Positions 18,140 through 44,873 of a stretch of 64,000 nt of DNA are shown here, in pieces (the stretch's first letter is position 1; each line of letters begins with the position of its first letter). A model generated the notes under the pieces. The model was not told where the DNA came from and did not search any database. It saw nothing but the letters and a program-made list of their open reading frames with translations. The stretch is from Mesodorylaimus sp. YZB2_4 (Eukaryota; Nematoda; Enoplea; Dorylaimida; Dorylaimidae): positions 1-64,000 of the forward strand of contig JASANH010000299.1 in the NCBI GenBank assembly GCA_030248295.1, read 5' to 3'. The position numbers were made by a program, and so were the translations under genes.

Positions 18140-19128
18140 TAATAGGAGGCATGTTTATATGAAGTCTTTTTCTTCGAACCCTCAGATTCAAGGACTTTGT
18201 CGTTGGCTGACTCGTAGGCGACCTCAAAAATTTGCAGGTGGCGGCGCAATCGATCTCTCAAAGTGTCCACGTCCTATTCTTCTTCATCGTCCGCTTGTTC
18301 CTTTTCTAATTGCACCACGATGGAAGGAGGCAATTTCGAACGAATGAGGGCTGCGAATTGCCGATGATTCACATCCTCTCCCAACGCTTGTAAGAAGTTT
18401 AGATGGACGTCTAGTTGATCGACCACCGTTCTCAGACCCTTTGGTCCAGACGCGGCGTGAAGGTTCATCAGTGCGGTGTAATGGGCGTCGATTGTGATAT
18501 TTTTGTCTCCGTATCGATCTTGCAATAATTTGATCGCTGCATCGTAATTCTGATCTGAAATTGAGAACCCAGCCAGGATGCGTGCTGCGACGCCAGTCAA
18601 CTGGCCTTCCAAGTAACTAAATTTGTCGATGGGAGCAAGGGCGGCGTTCTCATGAATGGTGACTCGAAATCAATCCCAAAACGCGTTCCATTCTTGTAGC
18701 TTGCCGTCAAACGTTGGAAATGATAACTTGGGCAATTTAATGACTGGATGAGGGACACCCAGTTGAGCTTCAATCGCGGCCTGTTGCTGGATTAGCTGCA
18801 GCTAATCTGCGCTCCTGTTCTTGCTGAGCCCACTATTTGAGTGTCGCTCCAGTGTCAACAAGTATGCGATCGAATCTCTGAGCAATTTGCTGTCGCTTTC
18901 GACCTGTTCTTCAGACGCTTTTTGGTCAGCTTCTTTCTGCCAGTCGAGCCCAAGATACTGCCTTTGGAGCTCTTTGAACGCGGATTTCATCAATTGAAGC
19001 AGGTCATGGTATTTGTCGAGTTCAGTGATGGAGGCAGCAGTCAAGACGGGTTGGTCTCCTGGTCGATTCTTGACCTGATCCGCAAGGTCTCGCCGAACAG
19101 CTCGTAACGCACGGACGACTCCTGCCAT
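18140..19128 (-). pseudogene. BEL/Pao retrotransposon gag, decayed
   Basis: Gag forms the retrotransposon particle. From the ATG at 19128 (minus) a helical N-terminus (HDLLQLMKSAFKELQRQYLG) leads, across a frameshift near 18800, into IKLPKLSFPTFDGKLQEWNAFWD, a TGA, and FRVTIHENAALAPIDKFSYL, LEGQLTGVAARILAG, YDAAIKLLQDRYGD. This is the DUF1759-type BEL/Pao gag core ('LP.L..P.F.G....W..FW..F...IH.N..L....KF.YL...L.G.A...I'). It ends after DTLRDRLRRHLQIFEVAYE, where the sequence switches to a LINE RT scrap. Breaks: one frameshift, one TGA and a 3' frameshift. Confidence 0.85.
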
Positions 19129-19369
19129 TTGGCGACAGGCTCAGCAGGTTGATGAAAGAGGGAAAGAGGGAATAGGTGAAGTGGGGTGCAAGGTGGCAAT
19201 GAAATCGGTCAGGGAAAATGTTTTACACGTTCTGCTACCATGTAAAGGACACAACCATAAGGGAATTTTAATTTTATTGTGAAAGCGGTAAATTAACCAA
19301 TGAGCCAATGAACCAATGGTAAAAGCCAACCTTCAGTCAATAAAATCCCTTGTTTATATAGAAAGATAA

Positions 19370-20300
19370 TTAGAATAAACTAGAATGCAGGTTAAGCGAT
19401 AAGGAATGAGACATAGGTCACCTTGTTGGAAAGGTGACGCCTTTGGAAAGATCATGGAGCAAAAAAGGTTGAGAAAGCGAGAAATGTTAGCTGAGTTGTC
19501 AAAGGTTAGAGGCAGTTGGAAATGTTGTGAGTTCACTGCTCGCGATAGGCGCGACAACTGGTCCGCGGAAAAGACATTCATTGAGGGCTGTGCGCCCGAA
19601 CTCAAGTGAGCTAGTGGCCGACCCATCATACACGATACGAACTTTCATTGTCGTTTTACCAGGGCTGATTACAGGATGATAGGGAATACTATGGACCCTT
19701 CTAGTGGAATTGTTGCCAATAATGGGTTTGATGATGACAGAATTGAGCTGAGCTTGTACGATGTCATTGTATTGTGCAATGAATTGAGGCGAATCCTCTA
19801 TGTAGGGCACAGCCAGCCCAAATAAGAATTGTGCAGGTGTAGTCCATCTGTGGGTGTGATTTTCATTATGATCAGAAGTTCCCACATGTAGTCAGATCCA
19901 ACAAGGAAGTGGACTGAAATCGATTGAAGATCCTATGGCATCAGCCAGGGCAAGATCTTGAATCAGCCTGTTGAATTCGTTTGTGCCGATGGCTGCACGT
20001 TGGATTTTGCCCGTCATAATTGGAACAATGTTGGCAAAAAAGGTCTGAATAAGGTTGTCCTGGAGTCCAATGTGAAATTTCGCGATCTGAAAATGTTCAA
20101 CTTGGGCTGTCTGCAAGACAGGAATTACTGTAGTTAGATGAAAACTAGGCTTACCAGACTTGGGTGTCGTTTAGGCTTCTGGCTTGTAGTCATGATCTGT
20201 GGGCTTCTTATCGGTATGCGGTCTCACACCTCTGGAGATGACGGCGCAAATGTTCAAGCAGTGTGTCAGCTGTTCATATATCAGCGTCCCCAGCCTCCTT
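19370..20300 (-). pseudogene. BEL/Pao pol fragment: protease to start of RT, decayed
   Basis: Minus strand. It begins with ADTLLEHLRRHLQRCETAY, homologous to the last part of the neighbouring gag fragment. The protease region follows (TAQVEHFQIAKFHIGLQDN, then a HFLVGSDYMWELL-like block in a shifted frame, cf. 'ID.LIGSDYYW'). The RT start comes next: YNDIVQAQLNSVIIKP, PYHPVISPGKTTMKVRIVYDGSA and LNECLFRGPVV, the diagnostic BEL/Pao 'HPV....TT..RIVYD.SA....LN..L..GP' block. RT is broken after that. It lies upstream, in its own direction, of a gag fragment, the reverse of the normal gag-pol order. Confidence 0.85.
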
Positions 20301-26054: not shown

Positions 26055-26330
26055 CTAGTAGAGGAGGAATAAACTTGACATTATTTGAAAAATAAATCGT
26101 TTGACTTTTGAGCTAGTGTTTCGATTTGCCAGGAGAGCTATGTCAATTTTCAATCGAATTAGGGGAAAATTTTGTACAGAGGTGATGTCGATGTCGAGGT
26201 TGTGCTTGAGGTTGAAGGCGAATTCAGATATAGCCAAAAACGAAGCGTCGGAAGTTTCTACCAGCTGTTTCTTGGCGGCAGCAGGTAGGCGTGATAATGA
26301 AAAGCGCAATTCACAACTTGACTCTTGCAC
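26055..26330 (-). pseudogene. Polinton/adintovirus-like small capsid-associated protein, truncated
   Basis: 91 codons on the minus strand. LSRLPAAAKKQLVET, ISEFAFNLKHNLDI and RLKIDIALLANRN followed by VKRFIFQ match the pattern of a small protein regularly found in animal Polinton-like loci ('LP.A.K..LV...D..F...I.E.A.N.L.G...L.......L......LR.L......KR'). I recall that family from sequence patterns only, and it is often compared with adenoviral core proteins. The usual hydrophobic Gly-rich C-terminus is missing: the frame ends in a short unrelated tail, so it is broken at the 3' end. It lies just downstream, on the same strand, of the ATPase remnant, which supports the call. Confidence 0.55.
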
Positions 26331-26454
26331 AGCCGGGACATTTTTAAATTACGAAATCCAAAGGGGATTTCGGTGAATCTAAAGATTTATGAACATACAT
26401 ACACTAACTCCGAGTGAGGAGCCTTAAAGTCGGTACATAGACTCAAATGGGTTT

Positions 26455-27208
26455 TCCTGATGGAAGACTGCTGCTAAGGACCCCGTAAGCTGCTGTCAGC
26501 TTTCGCAGGATGAAGATTGATCGTGGGAAATGTGAAAGGTCTATCTTCGGTCGCTTTCTTGGATGCGTCCAAAAGAAATGCCACTTTCTTGGGAAATGAT
26601 TGCTGCGCAAAGCGTTTAACTGACGCTTTCATTACTGGCCACGCGTCAGAACAGCACAGTGACTGTTTTTTTCAGATGCACCGCATCTTTTTTTTTATTG
26701 ATTAGCTGCTGCACGATAAATATCATTGTGGAGGGCACATGGTGTGAATCGTCACAAAACATCATGACGAGCTGCTTGTACGTGGCTCAAGACATTCCTG
26801 GGTGCTGATCATCGATCACAATGCAGGAATCAGGCACTACTTCATTAGAGTTTGGAGAACCTTCTTCAAACTCAACATCATGGACTAAAGAAAAAAGTCC
26901 TGATAAATTAAAAAGTGCCATACAATTTCGCTAGATGTTCCGAAAAAAATCTGAATTCCAGCTCCCAGCAGGTCAACAAAAACACTCTTGCCTGACCCTG
27001 TGCCTCCAGCAAGCACAATGGTGGCAGGTTGCTGTAATACAATGATTGCCTGTTTGGGTTTCTCAGGCCCAGTCGCTTTTCCCATTCTCTTCTTTTTCTG
27101 TTTGTCTTTATACAAGCCACACAAATCTCCAATGGGAATAAGAAACAATCTTCTGATAGGGACAGTAGAAGGGTTCAAATGAAGTTGACCAACGTTTCTC
27201 TCCATCAA
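26455..27208 (-). pseudogene. Polinton-like packaging-type ATPase, broken
   Basis: A P-loop ATPase of the kind thought to pump viral DNA into capsids. In the minus-strand frame from 27208, ATIVLAGGTGSGKSVFV is the Walker A motif (about 26985-27030), followed by IQIFF and EIVWHF. After a frameshift near 26890, SCIVIDDQHPGM is Walker B with two acidic residues, and CDDSHHVPSTMIFIVQQ is the conserved HH...QN-type block. LKKTVTVLF leads, across a stop and a shift, to VKRFAQQSFPKKVAFLLDA and KKATEDRPFTF. This order is that of the ATPase found beside F54H12.2-like proteins in animal Polintons. Two in-frame TGA codons and two frameshifts make it a pseudogene. Confidence 0.8.
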
Positions 27209-27240
27209 AACGATGCAAGACTGGCAACAGCGTGATCATT

Positions 27241-27540
27241 TTATACATTTCTTTTAAACGTCAGTGACCGAACTATATCAGTTGTCAGCAGCTTTATCAG
27301 ACTTCCTTGAGCATCAGTCAGCGAAAATAATATGGTGCTAATGACTTCACATGGCACAGGTACAGAGATAGGCTTTTGCGACCATGCGTTTTTGTTTAGA
27401 ATGCTGAGGAGGATCAGCAGCTTATGATCATCATACATGTACGCGTTACAAACATCAATGGTGATGTGCACAATGCGATTTCTGTCCTTGGGCGGCGCAG
27501 AGACAATGCAGGGTGATAAACAAACGCCATAGTCCAACAT
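27241..27540 (-). pseudogene. Polinton-like structural protein, C-terminal fragment
   Basis: Minus strand, ending 32 bp before the ATPase start. VHITIDVCNAYMYDDHKLL and the tail STILFSLTDAQGSLIKLL...SLTFKR fit the C-terminus of a structural protein carried next to the ATPase in animal Polinton-like loci, which typically ends '..I.I.D..G..I.F......LHFR'. The N-terminal part is absent or unrecognisable. Function in virion assembly is inferred from the family and from position only. Confidence 0.45.
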
Positions 27541-27835
27541 GTCGGCTGGAGAGGTTACTAAAAAAAATGGAAAAGCTGATTTCCTGGTAAAAAACGTTTG
27601 CTTCCAGCATTGGGAAGGAAAATGATAAACTTGTTTATTTTACAAACTGTTCTTCGCTGTGCCACTTGTCGTCTTCTGAACCATAACCTTGATACTGCAC
27701 AAAATACTGTTTTTACTCTTTTTGTGTTTTTGGGTTCGAATAACTTTTTCGATTCTAAATTCTGTTGAAGCTGGTTCCTTTTGCAATTTTGGTTAGTGAA
27801 AAGCAGCTTAAAAAGGCGCTACTATTTTTAAAAAA

Positions 27836-28192
27836 GTGAGATTATTAGCCACACAAGTTACCTTGAAACAGACTTTTTCTGTGGTATTTGACGCAGGACT
27901 ATATTCGGTCTTAGTAGGTCAGAACAATATGCATCTGGTGAACTTGAAAGCCTCACTGCAATTCGTTTCAACCCTCCTGACTGATGACGAGTCTCTGCAT
28001 CGAGATACTGACCTAGTCAACGACTGCAAAGTCTGGTTCGTGCGGGACAGTATTAGTCATCGAGTCCATCCTTTCTCGAATGACGTCTATGTCGGCGTCA
28101 ATAAGCTTGATACGATTATTGGACCAGTTGTGGGACTCAACTGGCAGTGCAACACATCAATGTATCGCTTGGTCTTTCGATCCAGTAAATAG
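27836..28192 (+). CDS. hypothetical protein
   Basis: 118 codons (first codon TTG/ATG uncertain), not recognised. VNLKASLQFVSTLLTDDES, NDVYVGVNKLDTIIGPVVG and a final TSMYRLVFRSS have a plausible globular composition. It lies between the minus-strand virus-like remnants and the tandem repeats, so it may belong to the same insertion. No motif assigns a function. Confidence 0.3.
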   Translation: MRLLATQVTLKQTFSVVFDAGLYSVLVGQNNMHLVNLKASLQFVSTLLTDDESLHRDTDLVNDCKVWFVRDSISHRVHPFSNDVYVGVNKLDTIIGPVVGLNWQCNTSMYRLVFRSSK

Positions 28193-28858
28193 CGCATCAG
28201 CATTGACTTGAATGTTCTTAAAACCCAAGACGGTATGGTTCAGGAGCAAGTTTGAACATGTTTCATGATTCCGAAAAACCTGCGTATCTACTAGTATCTA
28301 CTGGAGAGGAACTTTCGGAACGTAATGACGAAATAGTTTTATTACAAGGCTTGATTGGTCGAGGCCTTGGCACTGTCGAGATTCTGTCCTTGTTTTACCA
28401 CATCGCCAAGCGTTTAACAGCGCAATCGAGGGAAGCGTCCATCGCGCCAAGTTTCGTTTATCGCGCCAAGTACTCTTTTCTCCAACCATTCTATTCACTT
28501 TCAATCATGCTCGAGGCAACGTATACGCATTTGATCTAGATGAGAATCAAACTCAAGAAGATTCAGGAGGATTCGGTCAATCGAACAGCAGTGGTGCTTT
28601 TTCCAGCTCTGATCACGCCTGCTCTTGAGATTCAGAGAGTGTGATTCGCTTACAATGTTGGTGGGTCACTGTAAGCTCACCAGCCAATTATTAGTATGGC
28701 TAATAGATCTAAAGCTCACTATTCACAAATGAAGGCGTCTCATCGACTGAAAAATGTTATTCTTGTCAAATCAGCATCAAGAAGTGCATACACTGAAAAG
28801 TAGTAATAGCGTACCCCCCTGAGCTGGTACCTTTTGAGCCACAATGGTTAAGCATAGG

Positions 28859-29062
28859 CAGTGTAAAGTAGCGCGCGAAGCGCGTTACCGTCATGTATGG
28901 AACTACCTACAGTAGGCCTGGAGTAGTTACAGTAATCCTAAAATCGTCAAAGGACAGAGACAGTGTAAACTAGCGCGCGAAGCGCGCGTACTGTCTTGTT
29001 CAAACCACTTACAGTAGGCCTGGAGTAGTAACAGTAATCATAAAATCGTCAAAGGACAGAGA
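28859..29062. repeat. two tandem 102-bp units with GCGCGCGAAGCGCGCG core
   Basis: Units at 28859-28960 and 28961-29062 begin CAGTGTAAA(G/C)TAGCGCGCG and share TACAGTAGGCCTGGAGTAGT and AAAATCGTCAAAGGACAGAG. A third partial end (ATCGTCAAAGGACAGAGACA) occurs at 29221-29241. The core can form a GC-rich hairpin. Confidence 0.85.
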
Positions 29063-30141
29063 CATGTCTTTTAAACTTTTTGGCAGCAAAGGACTGGCTA
29101 GTTGATATTTACAATTTTTTTTCACAAACCAGTGATGTGACTAGCGAAATTAAAGAAATTCATTTTGTTTTTGTTTTGTCGAAGGAATTTTTTTATGTTT
29201 TGTTTTCTGACAAACTATAATATCGTCAAAGGACAGAGACAGGCTTTTTTATCGGCAATTTTTGTGCATTGTTATATGATCTCGTGGCATTCTGTTTTTA
29301 ATTTTTGATTTTTTTTGAATCTGTGCTCTTGCAGAAAGTTTTGTGAATTTTTTCGTGCAATAATTGTACTATCTAGTGACATCCTGGTTTATTTACTTCT
29401 GACATTATGTTGAAAAGTTGGGCATAAGTGTAAAGTTTTGAAATTATCGCAGGCTACAGAGTGCAACCTAGGAAATCCATATGTGTACAGAGACAGACAG
29501 CGTACTGTACTGAGTGTAAAGTTACAGTAACCAACGAACATTTTGCAGCTGATTTCAGTGATGTAAGCTACTGTGTGGAGTTTAAAGTAACACATTTCCA
29601 ATTGACGCACAGAGAGTGTACTGTATTCAGCGTAAAGTTACAGTAATCCTCAGAGCCTGGGGCTAATTTTTTCTTATGTAAAGTATAGTAAGAAGTATGA
29701 AGTGTGAAGCAGCACTGTACTTACAGTAAGCTAGTCTTGCAATAAATAAGTAGATCGCTTGATGGTAACTTTACATCTCCTTGTCTGCGTGAATGTTGCA
29801 ATCTTTTTTGGATAGTGTAAAGTGGATAAAATAACAAGGTCACGTGTAAACACAGTGTAAAGTGGATAAAATGACAAGTGTAAGTTTACGTCACATGACT
29901 TTCATAAACTCACATAATGTCACACAATAACAAATGCTAAACGATAGTATCACAAAACAGAGTCAATGTTTATCTTTTCCTTGACCACTGCTGGTGACCA
30001 CTCCAGAATTGAACACTGACCGCTGGAGCTCTTCCGCTAGCCACCATTCACGACGACTGCAGAATGAACACTGAGAGCAGACAGCGGAGATTGGTCGTGT
30101 TTAAAGCCAAAGTACACCCATAAGTTCACCCTGACCAATTA

Positions 30142-30325
30142 GAAGCGAGCATGTACACCCATCGACTATCAAGCGCACCTATGACTCATCCAAAAAGTCA
30201 CCCACCAAACGTCACCCCTAAAGTCACCCATTTGAAGCGAGCATGTACACCTATCGACTATCAAGCGCACCTATAACTCATCCAAAAAGTCACCCACCCA
30301 AGGTCACCCCTAAAGTCACCCATTT
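30142..30325 (+). promoter_or_regulatory. two 92-bp tandem units with AP-1-like, CACCC and CCAAT elements
   Basis: Units 30142-30233 and 30234-30325 each start GAAGCGAGCATGTACACC and end AAAGTCACCCATTT. The surrounding 30109-30500 is packed with TCACCC/ACACCC. TGACTCA (30182) and TGAGTCA (30388, 30466) match the AP-1 consensus, and CCAAT occurs at least three times. It lies 300-500 bp upstream of the zinc-finger/PolB-like gene, so an enhancer role is likely but inferred. Confidence 0.6.
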
Positions 30326-30524
30326 AGGTACACCTCAACCAATCAGAATCGAGTGTGTGTACCAACACCGGCTATCAGTCGCACCCATGAGTCACCTCTA
30401 AAAGTCAGCCCCGAGATCGCCTATCAAGTACACCTTGACCAATCAGAGTGAAGAGTGTACACCCATGAGTCATCTAGCGCCTCTGATCAGTACACCCCAA
30501 CGAGATCACCCCCTTACAGAAATC

Positions 30525-30533
30525 TATAAAAGG
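30525..30533 (+). promoter_or_regulatory. TATA box of the zinc-finger/PolB-like gene
   Basis: TATAAAAGG, 111 bp before the ATG. A start near TCAGTGT at about 30552 would give an 80-nt leader. Confidence 0.65.
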
Positions 30534-30635
30534 AGCCCATTTCGGCCGACTGGTCAGTGTTCTCTCCAGTCCAGCTGGTGGAAAGTCGTCTCCTCGTAAT
30601 CTCTCCGTCGCTTTGTTTCATCAGTATTTCCGAAA

Positions 30636-32024
30636 ATGTCGCTGTCCAAGCCCATTGGTGATGATGAATTGGCCCAATGTCCGAGCTGTGGCAAGTGGTT
30701 TATGGGTGGTCGTAATTTGGCCGAGCATTTGAAAACTCATCCAGCCGGCTCATCTGACACGTCTTCCACCAACAAACGTCAGAAGACTGCTGCTGCATCT
30801 ACCGACCGTCATGCCAACGTCAACTGTCCGACTTGTGGCAAGTCAATGAGAACCAATAATCTGGATCGCCATATGAAGACTCATCCAACCGAATGTTGTT
30901 ACGACTGCCCGTGTTGTGATTTTCAAGGTGCTCACACACTGGATTATTTGAAAGGCCACTATGATCGGAAGCACAAGAACGAAAATTTCAAGTGCAAGAG
31001 GTGTGGTCAGCAATTCACCGAATTCGGATTCTGGGAAAATGATCACTTGAACGGCAACTGCCAAATCCGTTTCAAACGCCCCAGTGGTGGCCCGTATTTG
31101 CCCAATCTGCAGCAGGATGATGCCCCCAATTTTCAACCCGACTCGCTCGCCATGCCAGCTGATGCTCATCCAGTTTGGGATTACTTGCCACTATTACCGT
31201 ATTTGCCAGATGCCATGCCCGAAATCAAGAGATATTGGGGTGATGTCTGCACCCATTTTGACAATAAATCCGAAATCGTTCAGAAATATATTTTCCGTGT
31301 GGCTGGTTCCGATGTCATGGACTTTCGTTTGGGTGATGCTCTTCGATTTATTTATTCCAAAGTCACCTATGCCTTTAATTTCAATTTGGGCTACACGTAT
31401 TTGTTGTACAACGATGAAGAAGGAGAATTCAAAGTGTTCACCGCCCAGAAGGAAATGAATGAACTATTTGATCGCAATATTTTCGTGCATAATTTGAAAA
31501 CTTTGAAATTAGCCATGGAGAAGGTGGACGAGTACAACGACTTCAGCTACCTGGCCGATATTTCCGACAGGCCAGATACCAAGTGGAGATACGTGTGTCC
31601 GTTGTCGTTCTGTTTCTATATTTACATCAGACCTGGATATATCGCTGGTAAGGGGCATAAACGTCTGCCGGATTATCTGACTCAGAACAAGAATCTAACT
31701 ACCATGGAACGTGACAAGCATGGGAATATTTTCTCCGACAAACTGTGCTTTTTTCGTTGTATTGTGAAAAACCTAGGCCAGGACTGGAATGATTTGGACG
31801 TGGTAATTAGTTGTTACGAGAAATATGCCCGTGCTGTGAGTGGTCCGTTTTGGACAGAGTATGGAGGAATGACTGAAGAGGAAATACCGATCGCTGAGAA
31901 TATTTTTAATTTGAACGTGCAGCTTTGGAGAATGTATCCTAAAAATGTGGGAGTGCTGTTAAGGAAAGCCACTAATCCTAATCGTCAAACTGTGAATTTG
32001 TTTTTGCATTTGTTTGATGACTAA
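30636..32024 (+). CDS. C2H2 zinc-finger protein with Polinton PolB N-terminal-like domain
   Basis: 462 codons without intron. Residues 15-35 and 64-83 are C2H2 fingers (C-x2-C...H-x3-H), 91-113 is a third finger, and 120-142 a C2HC finger. The middle (residues 190-340) is unassigned. From about residue 355, DKLCFFRCIVKNLGQDW, then IAENIFNLNVQLWRM and RQTVNLFLHLFDD, match the region that precedes the exonuclease in Polinton/adintovirus DNA polymerase B ('LCFFR.....G...LE..F..NI.VY.L...LNL'). The protein stops exactly there. No exonuclease or YGDTDS-type polymerase motif follows. Own TATA box, clean frame and poly(A) signal suggest an expressed stand-alone gene rather than a truncation. The DNA-binding role is inferred. 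Confidence 0.8.
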   Translation: MSLSKPIGDDELAQCPSCGKWFMGGRNLAEHLKTHPAGSSDTSSTNKRQKTAAASTDRHANVNCPTCGKSMRTNNLDRHMKTHPTECCYDCPCCDFQGAHTLDYLKGHYDRKHKNENFKCKRCGQQFTEFGFWENDHLNGNCQIRFKRPSGGPYLPNLQQDDAPNFQPDSLAMPADAHPVWDYLPLLPYLPDAMPEIKRYWGDVCTHFDNKSEIVQKYIFRVAGSDVMDFRLGDALRFIYSKVTYAFNFNLGYTYLLYNDEEGEFKVFTAQKEMNELFDRNIFVHNLKTLKLAMEKVDEYNDFSYLADISDRPDTKWRYVCPLSFCFYIYIRPGYIAGKGHKRLPDYLTQNKNLTTMERDKHGNIFSDKLCFFRCIVKNLGQDWNDLDVVISCYEKYARAVSGPFWTEYGGMTEEEIPIAENIFNLNVQLWRMYPKNVGVLLRKATNPNRQTVNLFLHLFDD

Positions 32025-32098
32025 ATGCTCGCTGTGTCGCTTCTTCTGTTTGGAAGGGATTTAGGTACTGTAAGCCATTGAAGGAATGCATGTACTGT

Positions 32099-32104
32099 AA
32101 ATAA
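32099..32104 (+). terminator. poly(A) signal
   Basis: AATAAA 75 bp after the stop codon of the zinc-finger/PolB-like gene, correct strand. Confidence 0.6.
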
Positions 32105-32380
32105 ACACTTCTTCTGTCTCGTGTTTGATTTCTGCACCAAGCGTGTGTTTCAAAAAGAAAGCAGCAAGCATAATACTAAAGACAATGTTCGGTAACAGAT
32201 GCAAATTTTTAAAAAGGGCTGAGTTGGAAATTACAAAAGTGCACAAGCCCTCAGCTGGGCCAGCCCCATTGCGGCGAGTTGTTGTGCTAATTTTGAATTA
32301 TAAGTGCTTAGCGTGAGACATGTTTTTTCCATCAGAGAAATCTCCATAAAGTTTTACAGAAGCCTCGTTATACACATCAT

Positions 32381-32869
32381 TTAGTTCATCTCCATCGAAT
32401 CAACCTCTTCCACCAACCCCAAACGTATTCCCAAATCAGAAAACAAGTCAGCGAAAACATCACTATCGTAACTGACAGTCACAGGTAAAACATCGGAAGA
32501 GGTGGGATTAAAACACAGTAAGCACATTACTACCATTTTATGTATAGCCATTATTGACTGACATCTGCACCAGATCGGACAGTCCTTTCTCAGTTGAACT
32601 TGACCATTTTCGTTCCTTTCCAAAAAATAATTTTCTCTTTGATTTACCAACTCATCGATTGTCTTCGGTCTGGCACTCGGGTGCTGGTAAACGAACTTGG
32701 CCAGCGCTGGCCATTCCTTTTGTCCATCTGTGGCCATGGCATGAGGTTGAGCTTGCAATAATTGGGCGGATTTCCAAGGCAGCAGCGAATAAGGAGTCAA
32801 AGTAATTTTGGTTCCTTGGGAGAATCTCATCAGGCGAACATAAAAAGACAGAGCATCTTGAACCGACAT
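32381..32869 (-). CDS. hypothetical protein of the virus-like cluster
   Basis: 162 codons, intact, no family recognised. The N-terminal two thirds are mixed (LLPWKSAQLLQAQPHAMAT, FVYQHPSARPKTIDELVNQ). A Cys patch (CPIWCRCQS...CLLCF) lies at about residues 97-118, and the C-terminus is acidic (YDSDVFADLF, VEEVDSMEMN). A TATA box on the same strand lies 52 bp upstream and the ATG is the first in the presumed transcript. It faces the plus-strand zinc-finger gene tail to tail and diverges from the basic-protein gene at 33112, with which it shares a promoter region rich in CACCC motifs. Confidence 0.6.
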   Translation of the reverse strand: MSVQDALSFYVRLMRFSQGTKITLTPYSLLPWKSAQLLQAQPHAMATDGQKEWPALAKFVYQHPSARPKTIDELVNQRENYFLERNENGQVQLRKDCPIWCRCQSIMAIHKMVVMCLLCFNPTSSDVLPVTVSYDSDVFADLFSDLGIRLGLVEEVDSMEMN

Positions 32870-32920
32870 TCTTGCAGGTTATGCAAAGACTGCAATGACG
32901 GGTGTGAAGAATTTGCACTC

Positions 32921-32930
32921 TATTTATAGA
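32921..32930 (-). promoter_or_regulatory. TATA box of the 162-codon gene
   Basis: TCTATAAATA on the minus strand, 52 bp upstream of the ATG at 32869. Confidence 0.6.
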
Positions 32931-33053
32931 TTCCTGAGAGCAGGAGTCATCTAGTCAGCTGAGCCTACGAGACCACCCATGACGATATCACCCCTTATAG
33001 CAGACATAAAACACCCATCTCCAACGTCACCCATTCAGATCACCCCCAAGGCA

Positions 33054-33063
33054 TATAAAAAGG
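33054..33063 (+). promoter_or_regulatory. TATA box of the basic-protein gene with CACCC motifs
   Basis: TATAAAAAGG, about 58 bp before the chosen ATG. It is preceded by TCACCCCTTATAG, ACACCCATCT, GTCACCCATT and TCACCCCCAAG within 85 bp. Confidence 0.6.
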
Positions 33064-33111
33064 ATACTAAAAATATGAATGGTCACTTTTTCTGGAAAAG
33101 GTTTCCGTGAA

Positions 33112-33489
33112 ATGTCTTTTCCGATGACGCATCGTCTGCCTCCGAAACAAGTCAAGGCCCTTCTAAAGAACCGTCGCTCCAAGAAAAAACAAGAATCAGT
33201 AGTCAAATGGACCCCGAAAGCCGACGCTGTGCCCATTGGTCAAAATTCTAAGCATCAGGCTGTGGCCGCTGCCTTGCGTCAAGTATTTCGCCCTCGAGTG
33301 GACAATGGCCAGTCGCATCAAACGAGCAAGCAGCAACTGATCAAAAGTAAAATGAATAAGGATCAATCGATCAGGAAAAAGTCGGGCAAGGATCGAGAAT
33401 TTGTGTCCAAGGCATGCCCCCAAGATGAAGCATCGCCAATTATTGACTGGGATTTGATCAGACAGGGAAGCAAGAGTGACAAAGCATAA
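33112..33489 (+). CDS. small basic protein of the virus-like cluster
   Basis: 125 codons, not recognised. The first half is strongly basic (LPPKQVKALLKNRRSKKKQ, LRQVFRPRV), followed by another Lys-rich block (KQQLIKSKMNKDQSIRKKS) and a short acidic end. The composition fits a DNA- or RNA-binding protein or a virion core protein, but there is no domain to prove it. An upstream in-frame ATG at 33079 lies only about 16 bp after the TATA box and has a poor context (T at -3), so the ATG at 33112 (G at -3) is preferred. Intron-free, with the same promoter style as its two neighbours. Confidence 0.55.
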   Translation: MSFPMTHRLPPKQVKALLKNRRSKKKQESVVKWTPKADAVPIGQNSKHQAVAAALRQVFRPRVDNGQSHQTSKQQLIKSKMNKDQSIRKKSGKDREFVSKACPQDEASPIIDWDLIRQGSKSDKA

Positions 33490-33689
33490 GTATGCTCAGC
33501 TGCCATATTCGGAGGAAGTTGTATTGCAACCCTATAAGGCCTTTTGTGTGAAGCCGAATTTGTTTTGAGTCTTTTTCAAGCATGACGATGTGTGCCTTTT
33601 GTCTTTCATATACATTTCGGTCGCTGACAATTTCATCAATTTAAAAATGTTTATAAGATGTTCTTCTATAACGCACTGCCTTTTCTCGC

Positions 33690-33800
33690 CATGCAAAAAA
33701 GTCACCCATCTAGTCGCGGGCGTCTTCTCCGAAAACACACACACAGTCACCCATCTAGCCGCAGCTATGCTCTCCGAAAAGTCACCCCCTTGGGGGGTGA
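33690..33800. repeat. two copies of a GTCACCCATCTAG motif unit
   Basis: AAAAAGTCACCCATCTAGTC and ACAGTCACCCATCTAGCC, each followed by a CTTCTCCGAAAA/GCTCTCCGAAAA segment (spacing ~52 bp), then AGTCACCCCC. Same motif family as 30.1-30.5 kb and 33.0 kb. Confidence 0.6.
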
Positions 33801-34504
33801 AAACAGCCAACCTGTTGGCGGGAAAAGAAACTAAGGGGTCAGGCAGAAGCCACTTTGTCAGTCAGACGTGCCTTCATCATCGAGCTAGTCAAGTCGCCTC
33901 CTGATTTTGCTCTATTGCGCCACGTGAAAAAATGTCTCGAAATTTGCCCCGAGTTTGCGAGTGAGTATTTATGTATGCATGACACGATAGATGGGGTCTA
34001 CGATGAGCCAGTGTTGGCCTGTGAGCGTATGGCTGAGCTAACAAGGGCGATAGGGTGATAGGGTGATAGGCTTGTAGGGTGATAGTGTAATGTGGCCTTG
34101 TTTCGGCTGGGTGGTCTCTATGAGGGAAACCATTAGTTCAGTGCCAACGAGACTAGTCGTATCCTCGCAGTCAGGTGCTCAAGAATCGAATATGACTAAA
34201 CTAGGTCTGAGCACACTGTTTGCTCCAACCATACTGCTGCCCAAAGTCCAGAGAGCATATCCCCTGAAGTTTAGGCGAATGACATGGTTGTTGTCGGCTC
34301 AGGACATTAGGTATAGTAAGCCTCCGACATTTTGGGGGTGAAGGAAAAAAGGGCTACGGGAGATGGCTAATTGGCAAGATTCTTCAGGTACTGATACGAC
34401 TGTAAGTGCTCGAAAAATACCGTAATGCTGCAAAGTGTCTGATACTGAGTCTGAGATCAGGTGGCACATGTGATAATGAGCCTATTGCTTCTTTGTCTTT
34501 TCAG

Positions 34505-35052
34505 TTACGTTGATCCGTCGACGGGAAAACAGTGCACCGCCATTCTGAAAGGCGCCGCCCATCGCTCCAGACACATGGCCAAAGTGCACTGGTTGGAGGC
34601 CCCAGGACGTGGTCGGCGAGTGAGGGCAGAGGAAAGGGAACGAATGACGGAGGAAGAGCACGCTGAATACAAGCGGAAAAATTTCCGGAAAGTAAGTGCA
34701 CTTTACTTGCCTTTTATGCCTGTGGCTCCAGCCAACAATTAATAATGTCCATACCCCTCGAGTATAAGGGACATACAGTATGCCATTATGGCTTGGGATG
34801 AACATCGAGACCCTCCTTAGAAGTGATGGGTTTCCAGTCTTAGCTCAGCACGTTGTCCTCTGTAGCTAGAAAAGTCAGCCTATTGACCAATTTCACAACA
34901 TTACTCTTATTTCTTTTCAGCAGAGGAAGTCAGCCGCCACCACCACCAGCTCCACTCCTCCCGCCACTGCGTCCTCCGCCGCCGTTCCCAGCGTGACCCC
35001 GCCCGCCATTGCGTCCACCGCCGCCCCTGCCGCCACTCCGTCCATCGATTAG
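34505..35052 (+). CDS. last two exons of an unidentified gene
   Basis: Exon 34505-34691 is bounded by TTTTCAG and GTAAGT; exon 34921-35052 follows TTTTCAG and ends in TAG. Joined, they read without a break. The first exon has STGKQCTAILKGAAHRSRHM followed by AKVHW, a spacing that could be the second half of a C2H2-type finger (H-x4-H...H). A charged helix (RAEERERMTEEEHAEYKRK) comes next, and the second exon is an Ala/Pro/Ser/Thr-rich tail. Codons end mostly in G/C, unlike the surroundings. Upstream exons were not found. Function unknown. Confidence 0.5.
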
Positions 35053-36806: not shown

Positions 36807-36996
36807 TAGCAAAAAATTCATGAAATCGAACTGGGAAAGGTAGAACGTGTGGTTTGATGCGCCTTCGGACCAGGCCAGTCCAGGCTGACGAAAGGTGATC
36901 GAGAAAGATCCTGCCTGGGCTCTCTGACTGGTCACATGTACTCGCAGTTTTAGGGTTGACAAGTAGACCATAACAACTAGCCTCATTTATGTCACC
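36807..36996 (-). repeat. dispersed repeat family R4, left copy
   Basis: TAGCAAAAAATTCATGAAAT ... CTAGCCTCATTTATGTCACC is the reverse complement of 44874-45052 over ~185 bp with about 15% differences. The pair brackets the 38.3-44.7 kb transposon at unequal distances (1.3 and 0.2 kb). Confidence 0.8.
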
Positions 36997-38304
36997 AGCT
37001 TGGGGAAGGTGGCTCCTAAAAAATGCTTACATCTGCAGCTCTTGTATAGAGGATATTTAAGGGACTGTCTTGTCCAAAATGTTATTTCACTTGCAGAACA
37101 GGTATCTCTTTCAATTGCGCAATCTCAAACAGGTTTGAATTTTGATGAATGTGCAGCTTCGTAAGACATTCTAGCAGCAATGGGGAACAACGAAATTCAG
37201 ACACTGGCATGTTTTGCGTGCCTTGCGCTTTCGACCCATTGCATGGAATTGATAAGTGCTTATAAATATTACTTTAGAGTGAAGATAAATTTGGTGACTC
37301 AACCGAACGATGGAATTCGGGTCTGCGGTGTAATTCAGTTGCCACTGGCAGTTTCCTGCTGCAGATGTTCTCCACATATCCTCACATTATCCAGCAGTTA
37401 GCCGAAGCAGAATAGGGCAAGGAGCCTACCTAACACACGCTCGAAATGTTGAACACACAGTCCCTGTTGGGGAATATTCTAAAAACAGTGTTCATAGTTT
37501 AAGCTCTTTGTCATGAATTAGTGAGTTGTGAGGTTCTGTCGTCTGCCAGATTGCCCAAGAACTGAGTTATGTGCAACTTCAGGCAGGAAAATTGTGATGA
37601 CAACTATATGAAGCCGAGCGAATTCAATACATACTTTTATTATAACTGCTTATGAGAGTTGGCTCCATCTTATAATTTAAACATGAGGAAATGATCTATT
37701 TGTTGCGTGCAGAAGCGTGGACAAGCATCTGTCAATGTGTCAACGCTAGCCTTGCTGACACTGCTTTTGGATCGCACGCAAGGGCGTTGTCTTTCTGTTG
37801 CCTCGTGTCGGTGCGGAGTCGATAGGACAGAATAATCTTCTTTTCCTGATCTATATTACCTTGTGTAGTAGCTAACCCAGTTTTTGATTATTGTATACGG
37901 TGCTTACTAGGTACAGCGCCCAGTGAGCTCTGCGGCTCAAAGCTAAAACGCTGTAATTTCATAAACTTGTAGTCGGGTCCATAATAAAGCATTTGGAAGT
38001 CGTGTAACAAGCTTCCTTTAAAGTCCCTAAGCCATTATGCTTTGCAGGAAAGTTTTACTTTAGTACCTACCTGCGAGATTTGCACGTCTGGTCAGCAGAA
38101 GCCACCAAGCTAGATCTACAGTAGCTGCCCATTCTTGAGGCTCTGCCTTTTTTGGAGTGTTAAACGGCTGTGCACCTTTTAGGGTCTATCGCCAATAACT
38201 GGAGGGATTATCACCCTGGCGCCAGACGCTGTATTGCAAGATTCGTATATCCTTGGCATTCAGAGATAGCGAGTGGACATTCGGCCAGAATATATTTAAT
38301 AAAA
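36997..38304. other. gene-free stretch
   Basis: Short frames only; no domain or repeat recognised. Confidence 0.4.
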
Positions 38305-39224
38305 CCCGCATTTCCCATTCTTGAAATTCTTGGCAAGCTCATTCTACATAGCTTGCCGAGACAGTGGCAAGATCTTGACATGACATTTGGCATGATTTTG
38401 GAATGAGCTTGCCAAGCAAGCACAAGTTTGGCAAGACTCTTGGCAAGGTGAACATTGTCTTGTTTCTTTCCTTCTTTGCCGCCCCTTCCCCTCCCTCCTC
38501 TTCGAAACGTTGCTTTGTTTCCATTCACCAGTTCTCATGTAATTTTTTCACACAATCTGAGATGACATAGAACGAATAAGCGAGCATGGAAAGATAAGAC
38601 AGGAGCAATTATTAAGACAAAGACAAAATGCAAACCGAGCAGAAGCAACAAGCTCGCATGGCACTCCCATTAGATAACTTCCAGAGTGAAGACGCGGAAA
38701 ATAAATGAGAGGAAATGCAAGAAAAAACTGCGTAATAAGGTATCAGATCCAAATATCCTTTTCTAATAATACGCGCGAAAAACCAACTCAAATCTTCTTA
38801 CCCCAATCGTCGTACTTCAACTTCAAACCCTCCACAGCTTCATCGCCGTTCCCAGTCGCCTCTTTCAACAACTTTTGAAGATGACAAATTCGCGAAACCA
38901 CCACAGATGCTTCAACTCCAAGTTTCTTCTTTTTTTTAACGATTCCAGCATCAGTTAGGCAACACTCGTCCCAAATTGTCTAAGATTCATAAGGCTTGCC
39001 TTCCTCGGTTCCCTCTTGCCTATCGAACAGTTCCCAATAAAATGAAGCTGATTGAGATGTACTGAAGAGGGAAGAAAATTTCAATTTGCTATATACGCCG
39101 TGTAGTAGCTAAACTAATCCTATGGGTGGACCGCTAATGGATGATCACCAAGGAAAAAAACCATATTTTTTGTTTTCACAAAGATTATTTTCCAAGTATT
39201 GGGGGGGGGGGGTGAACCACCCCT

Positions 39225-39360
39225 GTTGAGTTGGCCAGGACACTGAACCCTTCCTCTCAACCCCCCTCCCTCAGGAAACTGCGTTAAAGGCGCATTATAA
39301 AGCGGTAATTTCTAAAAGTTTTACCTCTTGCAGGGAGGGGGATGTGCCCCGCACCCCCTA
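39225..39360 (-). repeat. dispersed repeat family R2, copy 2
   Basis: Reverse complement of 23425-23600 (CTTTTAGAAATTACCGCTTT, GAGAGGAAGGGTTCAGTGTC on the minus strand), inserted inside the 6.4 kb transposon. Preceded by a 12-G run. Confidence 0.7.
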
Positions 39361-39602
39361 ACCCAGATGACCTTGCCCATCCTTGATTTCTTCTCTATCT
39401 CACTATCTATCTTTCCATATTCCGCAATTGTTTAAACTATATGACATGCTATTTTTTGGTTTTTTAAGTCTGGTTGGTATTTGGTGACAAGAAGGTCTGC
39501 TTCTTGCGATCCCCGCTTTTTACATAGAAGATAAGCCCGATCAAAAGAGACCGAACCTCCTGCTTCAAGCCCACCATGGAAAAACAGCTGCACATACTGT
39601 AC

Positions 39603-41305
39603 TTACCCTTTATCAGCCTTGGCATCCCGACCAGCTTGTGCACCAAGCTCGAAAGCTTTTATCGAAAAATCAGTTTGCATGAGACATCGACGCTCTTGAT
39701 CCAGCTGCGCTTTTATATGATCCTGGGACAAATTAGGCGACGCTAATAATTCTAATTTTTTCCTCGCCAGCCGTACTTCAAGCATAATTTGTTGCAAACG
39801 TCTGAAAACACAAAAGTGCAAGACCTCACAAAAAACGGCAATTAGGTGCTTACATTTTAGAATTTCAAATGCTTTTTTGTCCCGATCTTTCAATTTTGGA
39901 CGAGCACGAGCGTCTTTTTTCTCCGAAGTTGTCAGCAAATACAGCCGGAGGTTGCGCAAACCATAAAAACGACGTAAAATTGATAAAAGTGATGGACTTG
40001 GATTGCTGATATCGATGCTTAACGTCATTAAAAATTCCAAAATCGAATGTCTCATGCAAACGCCCCGCCAAGTGAAGTCCACCTGCAAAATATTCTTTTT
40101 TGCACAAACTTGTGCATCAACCGCGCGTGTGACTGACCTCATCCATCAAAAAATGTTTCATCGACCAAAAAAATTGTATTGTTAGTACTATCCGAATCCA
40201 GATTTCTGTCGATCGAATCCTGAAAGTTTCTATGCTTTTGAAGTTCTTAAGGAATGTTAGTGCGGTCTACCCAAAAAAACGGTTCACAGATATGGAAAAC
40301 ATTCAGTGCAATCAATAGGTAGAAGATTCTCGCTAATAATTGAGGGAAAGCACAAAAAAGTGGAACATACTTTTTTCATTAGTTTTGACACTTTCCTTTC
40401 CAAATTTTTGTTGCTAGCGATTACTTGGTCGAGCTTCCTTTCCAGTTTCGTCGAGACAACGGCCAATGCGCCATCAGGGATTTGTGAGGCTCCCGTAACA
40501 CTAGCTGATGTCACTGACGAATCACGTTCATCAACTGAGTCTGAAAGTAGTTTAAAAATTATAAAGTGGAAAACCAATTAATAATTGAGCCATACTGTCA
40601 ATGCATGCTGCTGCTGGAGATAAGGAGCGTTTTCTTTTCGAGCCTTCCGAACGGTTTCGTTGCTCTTTTAATAAAATTTGAGAATTATTGACAGGCACTT
40701 CGCCGATGACTTGCTCGATTTAATTTTCTTCGCCTTCTTCATCGCTAGAAGCATGGAACATGCGGGAGCAGTCTGCCAATGCTTCAAACAATCCACCGCG
40801 ATTGTTTTGAGCGACGCGACCTGCAAGGTGACCAATGCCAGAATTACTGTTGATTTTTCTGATTGTCTCGATACATATGCGATATGCAGACTTTTAGTGT
40901 GTACTGAGCGTCTGTATGCAGCAATACTAGACGCGACTTTCAGCCAGCCTAACCACAAGAGAGCCATATATACCAGCTTTGCAAAATCGAAAGCTTATTT
41001 GAACTTCGCAAACGATATCTCGTTTAAAATATATGTGCTGTACGCGACCCGATTAAAATCCTTATTAAAAACTACTTACAAACTCTGGAAACAGTCGCTC
41101 GAAGAATTGTCCCTTAATAAAAATATTTGATGACATCGCCTTTTGCCCATGATTGACGAGTAGAAAACGAATCCAGTTTTCCCTCATGAACTTTTCATTC
41201 AGGAAAATTCTTTGATTTTTTTCCGATATCGAGTTCAAATATGCGATTGTCAGCGTATACAACAGCGAAAAATTCAACATCGTCTAAAATAGCAAACATA
41301 GGCTA
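39603..41305 (-). pseudogene. second gene of the 6.4 kb transposon, unidentified
   Basis: Several exon-like pieces on the minus strand. 41305-41110: FAILDDVEFFAVVYADN with a TGA and TAA in frame. About 40770-40610: acidic/basic FHASSDEEGEEN, a TAA, then SQILLKEQRNRSEGSKRKR. 40535-40370: TKLERKLDQVIASNKNL, a coiled-coil. 40110-39603: VTWRGVCMRHSIL-like sequence and, across a short GTAAGC...TTTCAG intron at 39851-39803, LEVRLARKKLELLASPNLS. The arrangement of coiled coil and charged regions suggests a DNA-binding accessory protein such as tnpA-like proteins of CACTA elements. That is inference from position. Three in-frame stops indicate decay. Confidence 0.4.
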
Positions 41306-41399
41306 AAGGTTCTCCACCGGAATTTCGATCAGACTGAAGAGAGGCGAACAATGTGCAGTAAAAATGAAAAGGGTGAAACACGCACAGCCTGGCCTACCA

Positions 41400-44355
41400 T
41401 GAATACCGAATTATTCTTCAGCGAGTTGATCCAATGGCAGCAACGATCGAAGCCCCTGAATAATCGGCGGATGATGCAAGTCCGATCACATTGGCAAATT
41501 TTCCTTGGGCTTCATCGACACTTCATCCTGACCTAAGCTTTGATGATTACTCGGCCGTTGGGGATGATATCTCAACAATTTACGGCGATAATTTGCAACA
41601 AGTGAACCTATTCTCATCAGTGGCTTTGGATGATGAAAAATTATTTTCGGATGAAGAAAATGAAGATGATTTTGAGCTAGAATCTGAAATTCCTCTGGCT
41701 ATTGGCTTTCTCACTGGTTCACCTGCAATCTCGATCCCCGATTTTGCCTGTTAAGTTGTCGCACTCCAGTGCACTCGAAAAGCAAATGACGAACTCATCG
41801 ATTCTGTGTGCAAATTTATCAAACGACTGCTGCCAGCACCAAATAATTGCCCATCCTCCATAAAAGTAAGTATCTCTGGCTCTATTTGTTTAACCCGATA
41901 GACTTGCATCGTACACATTTTAGGCATTAAAAACTATTTTCCGCCGTGTGGTGATGGAGAAAATGGGAACCGTGACTCCAAGTATTCAGAAGTCTCGTTC
42001 ACCTCGTTATGGCGATCGGTCAGTGGAAGCGTCATATTTTTCATCCGACATTGGGCAGCAAATTCAAACGGTTATTGATGGGTACGGAAGCGAAATACTA
42101 AAATATTTGGCCCATGTTTCGTCGCAGACGAATCCCTCAATCGTCGATGATATGATCACCGCTGAATATTATCAAAAGGTTTGGCCAAATCCAAATGGCG
42201 ATGTGTTGTAGCTTCATTTATTGCTAAGTGCTGATGGTGCTCGATTCACAAAAGCAAAAAGTGGCAGCTTTTGGCCGGTCCATGCAACCATCGTGGAATT
42301 GCCCCCGAAACTACGATCAAAATCCGAAAAAAGCATTCTTCTTGCCATGTGGCAAAGTTCAGTGAAACCGGAGTGGGAAGTGTTGCTCAAGGAACCTATC
42401 GATCAGCTTCAAGTAAGTGTCCCACAATGAGTTCAGATTTTATTGTGTGCTTATATTTTTCCCTCCAGGCTCTCAAGTTGGTTAGAATGACAAAAACTAT
42501 AAATGGTGTCAAATTCAATGTCCGAGTCCGTGTTTTAGCGGCTGTCTTTGATTTGCAAGTATTTGGAACGTTGTACATTTCAATGGTAAGTTATGAAGCC
42601 ACAAGCTTTCAGTATGAACGAAGGAATGCTAATACATACATTTTTAGGCTCGTATGGTTGCATGCAATGTTTGCAAAAAGGTTATTATGACAAAATAAAA
42701 AGAAAACAGCTCTGGCCATTTGAGCGCCACGCCGTGGCGAAGTCATCAGAGTGGTATCAGGAAGTTTACGAAGATCTGCGAAAAACCCGGGTCGAATCGC
42801 CGTTCATGGGAGTCAAAGGCGAATCATTTTTATTGAAATCGGATATTGATCCTGCAATGCAAAGTCCTCTTGATCTAATACATCAATGTTATGAGGGCGT
42901 TTTCAATCGAATACTGGATTCTCTATTTGGTGAGTGAGCATCTTTTTTCCATTAGGTCATCTGAGCAGTCGGGCCCCCTGAAGTCTTACTTTGTCTTTGT
43001 GTGCTTTTTGGGTGCTAAAGCTAGATGATGGTCGAAGCAAACCTTAAAAGAAGGGCGTAGAATTCCCTTAATTGTGCTTGTTTGCTGCTAAAGCACACGT
43101 ATATTTCCCTGGATTGCGAACCCACACCTAACAGCCACAGCTAAATGTTGTAAACAAGCTCACTTTTCGGCCCAGATTGAATTTTATTTTCTCAACTATG
43201 TACTGTATCCGTTTCAGGAAAGCACCGAACACCATGGAATTTATGAAAATCGGCCAGAATGCGTCGTGTAGACGAAATATTGTGCAACATTATTTCCATG
43301 CGACTACCAGCGTGGGATACCATCGCTCGAAAATTTGAATTTTTTAAAGCCTCAGAATTGAAACATTTGTTGCTTTATGGTTTGATTCCAGCGTTGAAGT
43401 CTGAGTTATTGTCGACTGCGAACCGAAAAGCCATTCCTGCATTGGTTGTTACTCTTCAACGAAATTATTTTTAGAATCACTTCAGACGAAATTCGCATTG
43501 ATTCCTTGCCGTTTATTGATTATCTCGTATCGATTTGGCAAAGATTACTCCGTCATATTAAGCGAAGACGCGGAAACATTCAATGCTCATTCGATGAAGC
43601 ATTTGACCTCCTTTACTCGCTTGTTTGGACCGATGCATCATTATTCCACATTTGCATTCGAGAGTTTTAACGGCACTTATGCAAATTTTGTGTCCAGTGC
43701 TCATGGAACCGTCCAACAAGTTGGCCGGCGCATGAGCGAAAGTAGATTCATTCGACACTGGATTCGCGAAAAAAAGCAACAAAATGGAACAATCAAACCG
43801 ATATTGTTGGGCTTTGCTGGACAGTCGGACGATAGTCTAGTATATAGTGGCATTAAGGTCAAAGGTAAAGTTTCTGCGTCCCAATTGACGAATGAAGAAC
43901 TTAATTTGCTTAGGTTGCGCTTTCCATTTTTGATTCAGGCAGATATCAAAGTTTCGACCATAGAGCAGCTAAAAATTGGCACAGTTTTAGTCAGGTCGTT
44001 TTTGTCTGAGTCAAAGATAAGATCTTGTACGCATATTGTAAAATTCAATGGCGATGAAAATTTTTATGGCTGGTTAAACAAGCTTTTTATATTTCAAAAT
44101 GAGGTGTATGCTTTTGGGAAGCGTTTTGAGACAAAAGGTGTGATATTTGATGAATTGCCTCGACCAGAAAACGAGCTGCTCATGGAGTGCATTGATAAAT
44201 TCCCTACTGCGTATGGAAATTTTTTTAGTATGGTGCGTCTAATCGATGAGTTATGTTTGTTTGAAATTAAAGCGTTTAAGTCTCGTTGCTTATTTGTGCA
44301 GACATCCGATCAATGCTACTTGATTGATGAATGTATGAAATACGAACACAGCTAA
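41400..44355 (+). pseudogene. transposase of the 6.4 kb element, broken
   Basis: Pieces in order: acidic LFSDEENEDDFELES (41640); DELIDSVCKFIKRLLPAPNN; a GTAAGT intron; KTIFRRVVMEKMGTVTPS; LLLSADGARFTKAKSGSFWP then VHATIVELPPKLRSKSEKS, the 'DG....KS...WP....I.ELP...R....N' block; a GTAAGT intron; NVCKKGYYDKIKR with WPFERHA; FMGVKGESFLLKSDID; then PAWDTIARKFEFFKASE and HLTSFTRLFGPMHHYSTFAFE. This is an EnSpm/CACTA-related transposase pattern. The last frame (from 43498) runs 285 codons. Breaks: TAA near 41460, TAA at 41752, TAG at 42209 and a frameshift near 43470. Confidence 0.7.
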
Positions 44356-44873
44356 TAAAAACGTCGTTAATCTGCAATAACAATTCATCGTTTACGGTCA
44401 TAAAGAAAGTGCAATACAAAGCCTAAGTTGTTCTGTGTAAGAGTTCTGTACCTTGAGGCACAAAAATTGGCATTCGTGCTTCAACCTTGTCAAGAAACGT
44501 CATCATGCCAAGAGCATGACATGACTATATTCTTGGCAAGAATCTTGCCAGGATCCACTATAGCATCTTGAGAACGCCAAGAAATTAGCATGAGATAAGC
44601 AAGAAAAACGTCTTGCCGAGGCATGTGGCAAGAAATCTCTACCTTGCCAAGATCATTGCCATGAGAGGAAATGCGGGAAAGGACGTCTCAGTCCCTATTT
44701 ATTGCGCATTCCCTGATGTCTGGATAGGCAATGCGAAATAAGGTGCCGGCTTTCTCCTCGTGCTTGATTCAATCACGCTCACGAGCGCATCAAGCGGAAA
44801 CATGCAAGATTCGCTGCTTCCTCCACAATAACTTGGTGTATTAGCATTGCTCAGAGTAGCATCTGGCGTGGCC

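Follow-up and report, generated by a model that had tools for sequence, protein, structure and literature searches.

Among the closest described systems, vertebrate Mavericks most often begin with two AGT units and, when intact, carry 6-bp target-site duplications (TSDs), according to the part of that study available to us (PMC8097293). For Polintons, the accessible part of a second study reports OTU and Y-family polymerase little-finger folds in the protein-primed PolB (pPolB), proposes that the viral OTU (vOTU) cuts the primer from the polymerase, and describes adenovirids and a Stylophora coral Polinton in which the terminal protein stands alone and the vOTU is left on the polymerase (PMC11071308). 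Here we describe a locus of the nematode Mesodorylaimus sp. YZB2_4 that holds the left end of a Polinton/Maverick, E2, beside a decayed relative, E1. The window is the whole 64,000-nucleotide stretch analysed (bases 1-64000 of contig JASANH010000299.1, our C200). Other C-numbers denote contigs of the same genome, searched as a 145-Mb assembly; genome-wide match counts take each fragment separately and are all lower bounds.

The locus consists of parts of two distinct virus-like mobile elements that adjoin one another, and its six genes do not belong to one element. Its anatomy, the split of the polymerase, the duplicated promoter and the homologies set out below were observed in this analysis. 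We consider it likely that E1 and E2 are two separate insertions, and that E2 is the left end of a Polinton whose pPolB is encoded as two genes. E2 is the less damaged of the two, and in its lineage the DNA-copying enzyme seems to have been divided between two genes that lie at the two ends of the element. The features of E2 are as follows.

28799-35044: E2 as a whole, left end of a Polinton/Maverick different from E1, with intact genes A, B and C
28799..28809, plus strand: E2 terminus AGTAGTAATAG with the (AGT)2 end motif, where the matches of other copies begin
28799..30591, plus strand: left terminal inverted repeat (TIR) of E2, type-1 family, 1,793 bp; matches of other contigs stop at its edge
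30525..30530, plus strand: TATA box (TATAAA) inside the terminal repeat, upstream of A
30636..32024, plus strand: gene A, a stand-alone protein with zinc-finger, terminal-protein-like and vOTU-like parts, 462 aa, intact (blastp, structure model)
32381..32869, minus strand: gene B, conserved 162-aa protein, intact, at least 146 matching places genome-wide
32923..33059, no strand: divergent B/C promoter region, with TATAAA on the minus strand at 32923 and on the plus strand at 33054, and TCACCC motifs at 32988-33040
33079..33489, plus strand: gene C, basic 136-aa open reading frame (ORF), intact, start codon uncertain, at least 21 matching places genome-wide
35044, no strand: right limit of E2 homology, where matches of C162, C255, C301, C316, C344 and C352 end (query 6335-6348)

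Gene A corresponds to the front half of a Polinton polymerase. It matches a fused polymerase on C503 (blastp, E 7e-69) and the coral protein P0011 of Oculina patagonica (blastp, E 2.6e-25), and its alignment to polymerase front halves spans the zinc-finger, D1 and vOTU parts. A sequence-only reading of this DNA had placed a PolB N-terminal-like part on one of three intact ORFs, and the matches of gene A to the front halves of fused polymerases bear this out. A single-sequence model of the protein was useless (pLDDT 34). A second model (pLDDT 52) resembles OTU proteases at residues 366-462 (Z to 6.8) and Y-family little-finger domains at residues 213-339 (Z to 5.8), the two folds named above. 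Searching the PDB with Foldseek placed zinc-finger chains at the top, polymerase eta at ranks 28, 36 and 47, OTUD5 at 30 and OTUD1 at 33. Sequence searches of Pfam and of the PDB (its best 60 matches) returned zinc fingers only, and a Pfam search with the last 134 residues gave no OTU. Gene A found nothing in IMG/VR, and nothing in a protein collection whose targets ran from about 254 to 808 aa, a range that excludes five of the six polymerases matching A.

The other half of the enzyme lies at the right end of related elements. The eight right-end loci tested (C579, C407, C349, C604, C798, C19, C738 and C758) all encode a polymerase start, and none carries A; the C407 locus is rearranged. These polymerases open with a short leader (MPKRK or MTKRK), followed by a zinc finger and the exonuclease part. 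The C798 polymerase had 12 database matches (best E 8e-91), two of them annotated PF03175, and gene A matches the front half in six of the 12, P0011 included. The C798 protein itself gave no polymerase match in Pfam, the PDB or PHROGs. Across 66 loci, many of which overlap or are near copies so that the counts are not independent, 22 carry A alone, 10 a polymerase start alone, and five (C503, C284, C815, C662 and C356) an A-like part followed by a polymerase start. Among the 10, L048 (C418) ends where its A-like match begins and may be fused too, and the upstream region of L045 (C730) was not covered. C216, the sixth of six distant A-like loci checked for fusion, showed no polymerase start in the 2.4 kb examined.

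The split is seen in two element families, with one two-ended element in each (C349 and C758); both have A on the left and, at the other end, a polymerase start. In a 12-row tree, the five stand-alone A proteins group together with support of 94/95, slightly short of the threshold that the tool sets; the three fused proteins group at 97/96 (two of them near-identical, on zero-length branches) and the four references group at 100/100. This topology fits a single split in the lineage, and the fused form is presumably ancestral. We also weighed whether the split could be an artefact, with A and the polymerase being exons of one transcript, or A being a relic while fused copies replicate these elements in trans. 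Fused copies are indeed present in the genome, and the A copies of both C349 and C758 are broken. However, the two halves are found on different strands at the two ends of the element, where each has an ATG and a TATA box of its own, the layout is kept in two families, and gene A has a ratio of non-synonymous to synonymous substitution rates (dN/dS) of 0.23 relative to its closest copy, on C296. We therefore regard an artefact as very unlikely.

Each half is preceded by the same promoter sequence. The last 114 nt before the edge of the type-1 TIR, including TATAAAAGG, are identical at 114 of 114 positions between the window, where they precede A, and the right end of C798, where they precede the polymerase. 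From the edge onward the type-1 sequences diverge, and the ATGs lie 45 nt (A in the window) and 52 nt (polymerase of C798) inside it. Type-2 elements likewise have a TATA box just upstream of the edge, with the ATG of A (C349) 55 nt inside it and that of the polymerase (C604) 74 nt inside. Counting both the hexamer TCACCC and its complement, the window has 34 copies, of which 21 fall within the 6.2 kb of E2; on the plus strand E2 has 14, and 11 of these precede the TATA boxes of A and C. No published case of a promoter in a Polinton terminal repeat stood out in a listing of the literature.

Most likely, judging from homology and layout, A is a primer for protein-primed replication that is delivered in trans. 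At the left end, gene A would supply the zinc-finger, terminal-protein (primer) and vOTU parts, and the right-end polymerase gene, which is missing in the window, would open with its zinc finger and the exonuclease part. The A protein would then prime replication in trans at the ends of the element, much like the separate terminal protein of adenoviruses. For the expression of the two halves and the fate of the vOTU activity, we infer that equal promoters at both repeat edges could drive the two genes, and that the vOTU might no longer be needed for cutting primer from polymerase. As the gene structure already separates the two, the vOTU may have become relaxed, or may be retained for folding or for another use.

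A may instead be a regulator or counter-defence protein, with DNA-binding zinc fingers and an OTU deubiquitinase, in elements whose polymerase uses another terminal protein. Zinc-finger genes of some adintoviruses have been named 'Ziftr' after the remote similarity of one of their proteins to CTCF-like regulators, according to the available part of that report (PMC11071296), and the zinc fingers of gene A also match CTCF chains. Viral OTUs can moreover be deubiquitinases, as the accessible text of PMC11071308 states. We nevertheless find a regulatory role rather unlikely, as the alignment of A to polymerase front halves covers the zinc-finger, D1 and vOTU parts, and just this stretch is missing from the right-end polymerases.

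Extending the interpretation of A as a primer, we give about an even chance to a two-gene pPolB lineage in which a zinc-finger/vOTU terminal protein acts in trans, the TIRs serve as a matched promoter pair, and other adintovirus zinc-finger genes may be the same half of the enzyme. As part of this proposal, copying of one repeat into the other would keep the terminal-repeat promoters identical. One viral protein is of interest here. A0A7D4VFN9, a 560-aa C2H2 protein of Drosophila-associated adintovirus 2, ranks first for gene A in a Foldseek search of BFVD (E 2.5e-7, 519 columns), with a TM-score of just 0.20 and a root-mean-square deviation of 33 Å, so that the match is a lead and not a test. 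As this is the top viral structural match to A, the same split may already exist, unrecognized, in a published virus; we met no discussion of the protein in the available part of its source paper (PMC8363768).

These findings have implications for how protein-primed polymerases evolve. The separation of primer from enzyme bears on the Polinton-to-adenovirus path proposed in the part of PMC11071308 available to us, and this one host genome, having both the fused and the split form, shows the enzyme before and after separation, here with the cut in another position, following the vOTU. The split also makes it testable whether the job of the vOTU is to cut the primer loose, which is done here by gene structure. 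Additionally, the promoter-in-repeat layout suggests an origin for such splits, in which the edge of the terminal repeat is placed before each half.

The boundaries of E2 were set by comparison with its relatives. With a query taken from 28700, genome matches start at 28799 in C602 (three places, query position 100) and C162 (query position 99); the C559 match extends 9 bases past this terminus, and other matches start inside it. The same terminus is seen in type-2 copies. At the inner edge of the repeat, matches of C798, C19, C6, C738, C559, C1000 and C758 stop at query 1892-1894 (window 30591-30593), beyond which C798, C19, C738 and C758 continue into the polymerase. In the left TIR (window 28799-30591), units of 102 nt (28859-29064) and 92 nt (30134-30325) are repeated in tandem, and no gene was seen. 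A search for AGTAGTAATAG on the minus strand, which would mark a right-hand terminus, found none in the window with up to one mismatch allowed. Thus, the window holds the left end of E2 only, and this copy is presumably an immobile fragment.

Two families differ in how they arrange these genes. The type-1 family, to which the window copy belongs, has the order A (plus), B (minus), C (plus). In the type-2 family (C349, C730, C604, C579 and C407) the repeat is about 1,890 bp long and has gene B inside it, giving the order B, A, C where A and C are seen (C349 and C730). On C349 both ends of a type-2 element are preserved (50076-71283, 21.2 kb), with TIRs of about 1,890 bp that are 98.8% identical, an inserted ORF resembling a long interspersed nuclear element, and in its interior a putative capsid gene with one stop. 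AGTAGT ends were found at window 28799, at four of six type-2 ends (the others being AGCAGT at L014 and AAAAAT at L016), at C758, whose left end was not found within the 400 bases examined, and at both ends of C773. The last is a related element of 11.4 kb with the same kind of termini and the TSD CTGGCT on both sides; a TSD is absent in C349, so that one of the two elements tested has one. The type-1 relative on C255 has A, B and C matches and a gypsy-like insert, together with two ORFs that are B-like and integrase-like, the latter interrupted by one stop. A putative capsid gene follows farther on; the insert and the two ORFs were named by eye.

Several other arrangements of these sequences were seen in the genome. 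Bases 1-620 of C352 are 100% identical to window 34425-35044, the right end of E2, and then diverge; C352 could represent another haplotype or a copy made recently. C602 has the terminal repeat three times in one orientation (at 10794, 19372 and 27952), spaced 8578 and 8580 bp, as if tandemly arrayed. C316 (76439-84135) carries A, B and C matches in mirror order, C-B-A and A-B-C, about 3 kb apart and palindromic.

Genes B and C complete the intact part of E2. Gene B has a dN/dS of 0.26 relative to C296 and is constrained; it had no Pfam or PDB match, and its PHROGs match was at chance level (E 0.19). Gene C gave a dN/dS of 0.56-0.80 against three copies, and is therefore weakly constrained. 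Its TATA box lies just 25 nt upstream of the first ATG, and so C may start at a later ATG. Because of their genome-wide matches (at least 100 places for A, 146 for B and 21 for C), the three genes are not chance ORFs, and the earlier description of them as intact, intron-free ORFs with TATA boxes holds (462, 162 and 136 aa; TATAAA at 30525 on the plus, 32923 on the minus and 33054 on the plus strand). Their preservation might suggest that the window copy was domesticated, its genes kept open for host use, as A, B and C are all open beside a broken E1 and the dN/dS of A and B is under 1. Yet other insertions (C296 and C730) have A and B open as well, and the constraint is thus explicable by selection in the virus before insertion. 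Domestication seems highly improbable to us, and the window copy shows no sign of it; dN/dS does not tell it from recent insertion.

E1 lies outside E2, 568 bp from its terminus, and is the decayed morphogenesis block of one Polinton lineage from which the capsid gene has been deleted. Its parts, described by comparison with C437 and C730, are listed below.

26091-28224, minus strand: E1 as a whole, a decayed fragment with its capsid-gene slot deleted
27848..28224, minus strand: C-terminal part of a Polinton-type integrase, decayed, in two frames (tblastn with the C730 and C437 integrase-like ORFs, E 2.9e-28 and 3.4e-19)
27244..27749, minus strand: small capsid-type protein, decayed (57.8% aa identity to a C437 ORF, E 6.6e-40; 35% to C730)
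27047..27232, minus strand: basic protein, N-terminal 62 residues (64.5% identity to a C437 ORF, E 1.2e-20)
27043..27048, no strand: deletion junction, putative major capsid gene gone (the C437 alignment jumps from L047:5666 to L047:4228)
26428..27043, minus strand: packaging-type ATPase remnant, frames broken (tblastn with the C437 ATPase, 43.8% over 192 columns, E 2.0e-37; a second piece runs to 26428)
26091..26402, minus strand: conserved gene downstream of the ATPase (61% identity to C437, E 1.3e-19; 47% to C730, E 8e-12)

The closest relative of E1 that we found is C437, with 77.5% DNA identity over 1,031 and 923 columns. The ATPase remnant extends with frameshifts beyond its ORF to about 26428 and retains, as the sequence-only reading had it, a Walker A motif (GGTGSGKS) and a Walker B motif (IVIDD, read by eye). 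That reading had also recognized three minus-strand remnants, and the ATPase and its two neighbours are indeed collinear with multi-copy elements; its label of 'structural C-terminus' did not stand, as the counterpart of that fragment in C437 and C730 is the gene following the ATPase. The integrase remnant at 28224-27848 had been overlooked. The small capsid-type protein is named by its position between the integrase and the basic protein. The putative capsid gene, which elsewhere lies between the basic protein and the ATPase, is an open frame of 461 codons in C730 and has one stop in C437. With four capsid queries (tblastn), the sole match in the window was to the C-terminal 23 residues of MCPc_C437, a stretch overlapping the start of the ATPase.

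The proximity of E1 and E2 had suggested one virus-derived locus, with all six genes of single origin and some of them decayed. All the parts do belong to the same broad virus group, and C730 too has a capsid block outside an A/B/C terminus. However, the terminus at 28799 parts A, B and C from the capsid block and ATPase, which have their own closest relative in C437, a contig absent among the gene A matches listed. The reading of a single provirus is thus rejected on the E2 terminus and largely refuted, and a common origin of all six genes seems to us barely credible. The two-insertion interpretation retains the proposed Polinton/adintovirus-like origin, which is borne out by relatives in the same genome with (AGT)2 termini, long TIRs, a 6-bp TSD (C773), a polymerase with database relatives, an ATPase and, by motif, an integrase-like gene. 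The genes at 30-33 kb were not found to be widespread, in any strong sense, without Polinton genes nearby; C349 and C255 have A, B and C matches together with the putative capsid gene on the same contig.

Other Polinton hallmark genes were seen to varying degrees in these relatives. The C579 ATPase reaches the cut-off of Pox_A32 (E 3.1e-5), and the ATPase remnant of E1 matches the ATPases of C579 and C437. The integrase-like ORF of C255 has a D, D, E motif and a chromodomain-like tail, read by eye, and the searches made with its pieces gave no integrase match; that of C730 matches PF00665 at a mere E of 0.049. The putative capsid protein (445 aa, encoded between the basic protein and ATPase) has at least 102 matching places genome-wide. 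Adintoviruses as defined in PMC11071296 have a hexon that BLASTp can recognize. The putative capsid protein had no PHROGs or PDB match and none in the protein collection, which may hold few animal viruses, and IMG/VR searches with the ATPase and capsid gene returned nothing. Among further ORFs recognized by eye, C418 has collagen-like and membrane-protein-like ones between the ATPase and polymerase genes (L048:3125-5445), and C730 one resembling a double-stranded RNA binding domain (L045:975-1277, minus strand), which adjoins the integrase block and has no Pfam match.

Elsewhere in the window, 18277-19891 (minus strand) holds a BEL/Pao retrotransposon remnant (PF03564, E 7.7e-23 for 18277-18669, the rest by eye), which points to a metazoan host, as BEL/Pao elements are not known outside animals. 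Inverted repeats of 112 nt, 8 kb apart and 91% complementary (36807-45052), surround a 316-aa ORF (43405-44355) that may be a transposase and has no Pfam match. The nematode SL1 pattern, sought as an exact match only, has no occurrence.

A split after the vOTU was not found in a literature search that left out PMC10748475 (nematode Polinton polymerases) and PMC8502044 (adintoviruses). Compared with known systems, these elements share (AGT)2 termini, TIRs, 6-bp TSDs, a pPolB, an ATPase and, by motif, an integrase-like gene with vertebrate Mavericks/Polintons, as far as the available part of PMC8097293 describes them, but the polymerase of the window's lineage is two genes at opposite ends. Five loci of this same genome and P0011 differ from that lineage in having both parts in one protein. 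With adintoviruses they share an integrase-like gene with a chromodomain-like tail (by motif, C255), PolB, ATPase and putative capsid genes, in the accessible account of PMC11071296, whereas in the window's lineage the A-like part sits on a separate gene and not on the polymerase; A0A7D4VFN9 is annotated, is similar in length and aligns to nearly all of A. We do not file E2 as an adintovirus member, because eight of eight right-end polymerase loci are without the A-like part, which gene A carries. Adenovirids and the Stylophora coral Polinton, on the available text of PMC11071308, resemble the window's lineage in encoding the terminal protein apart from the polymerase. Their arrangement, with the vOTU kept on the polymerase, was not seen here: the right-end polymerases do not match A, and the window's lineage places the vOTU-like domain with the terminal protein, so that the cut falls between vOTU and exonuclease.

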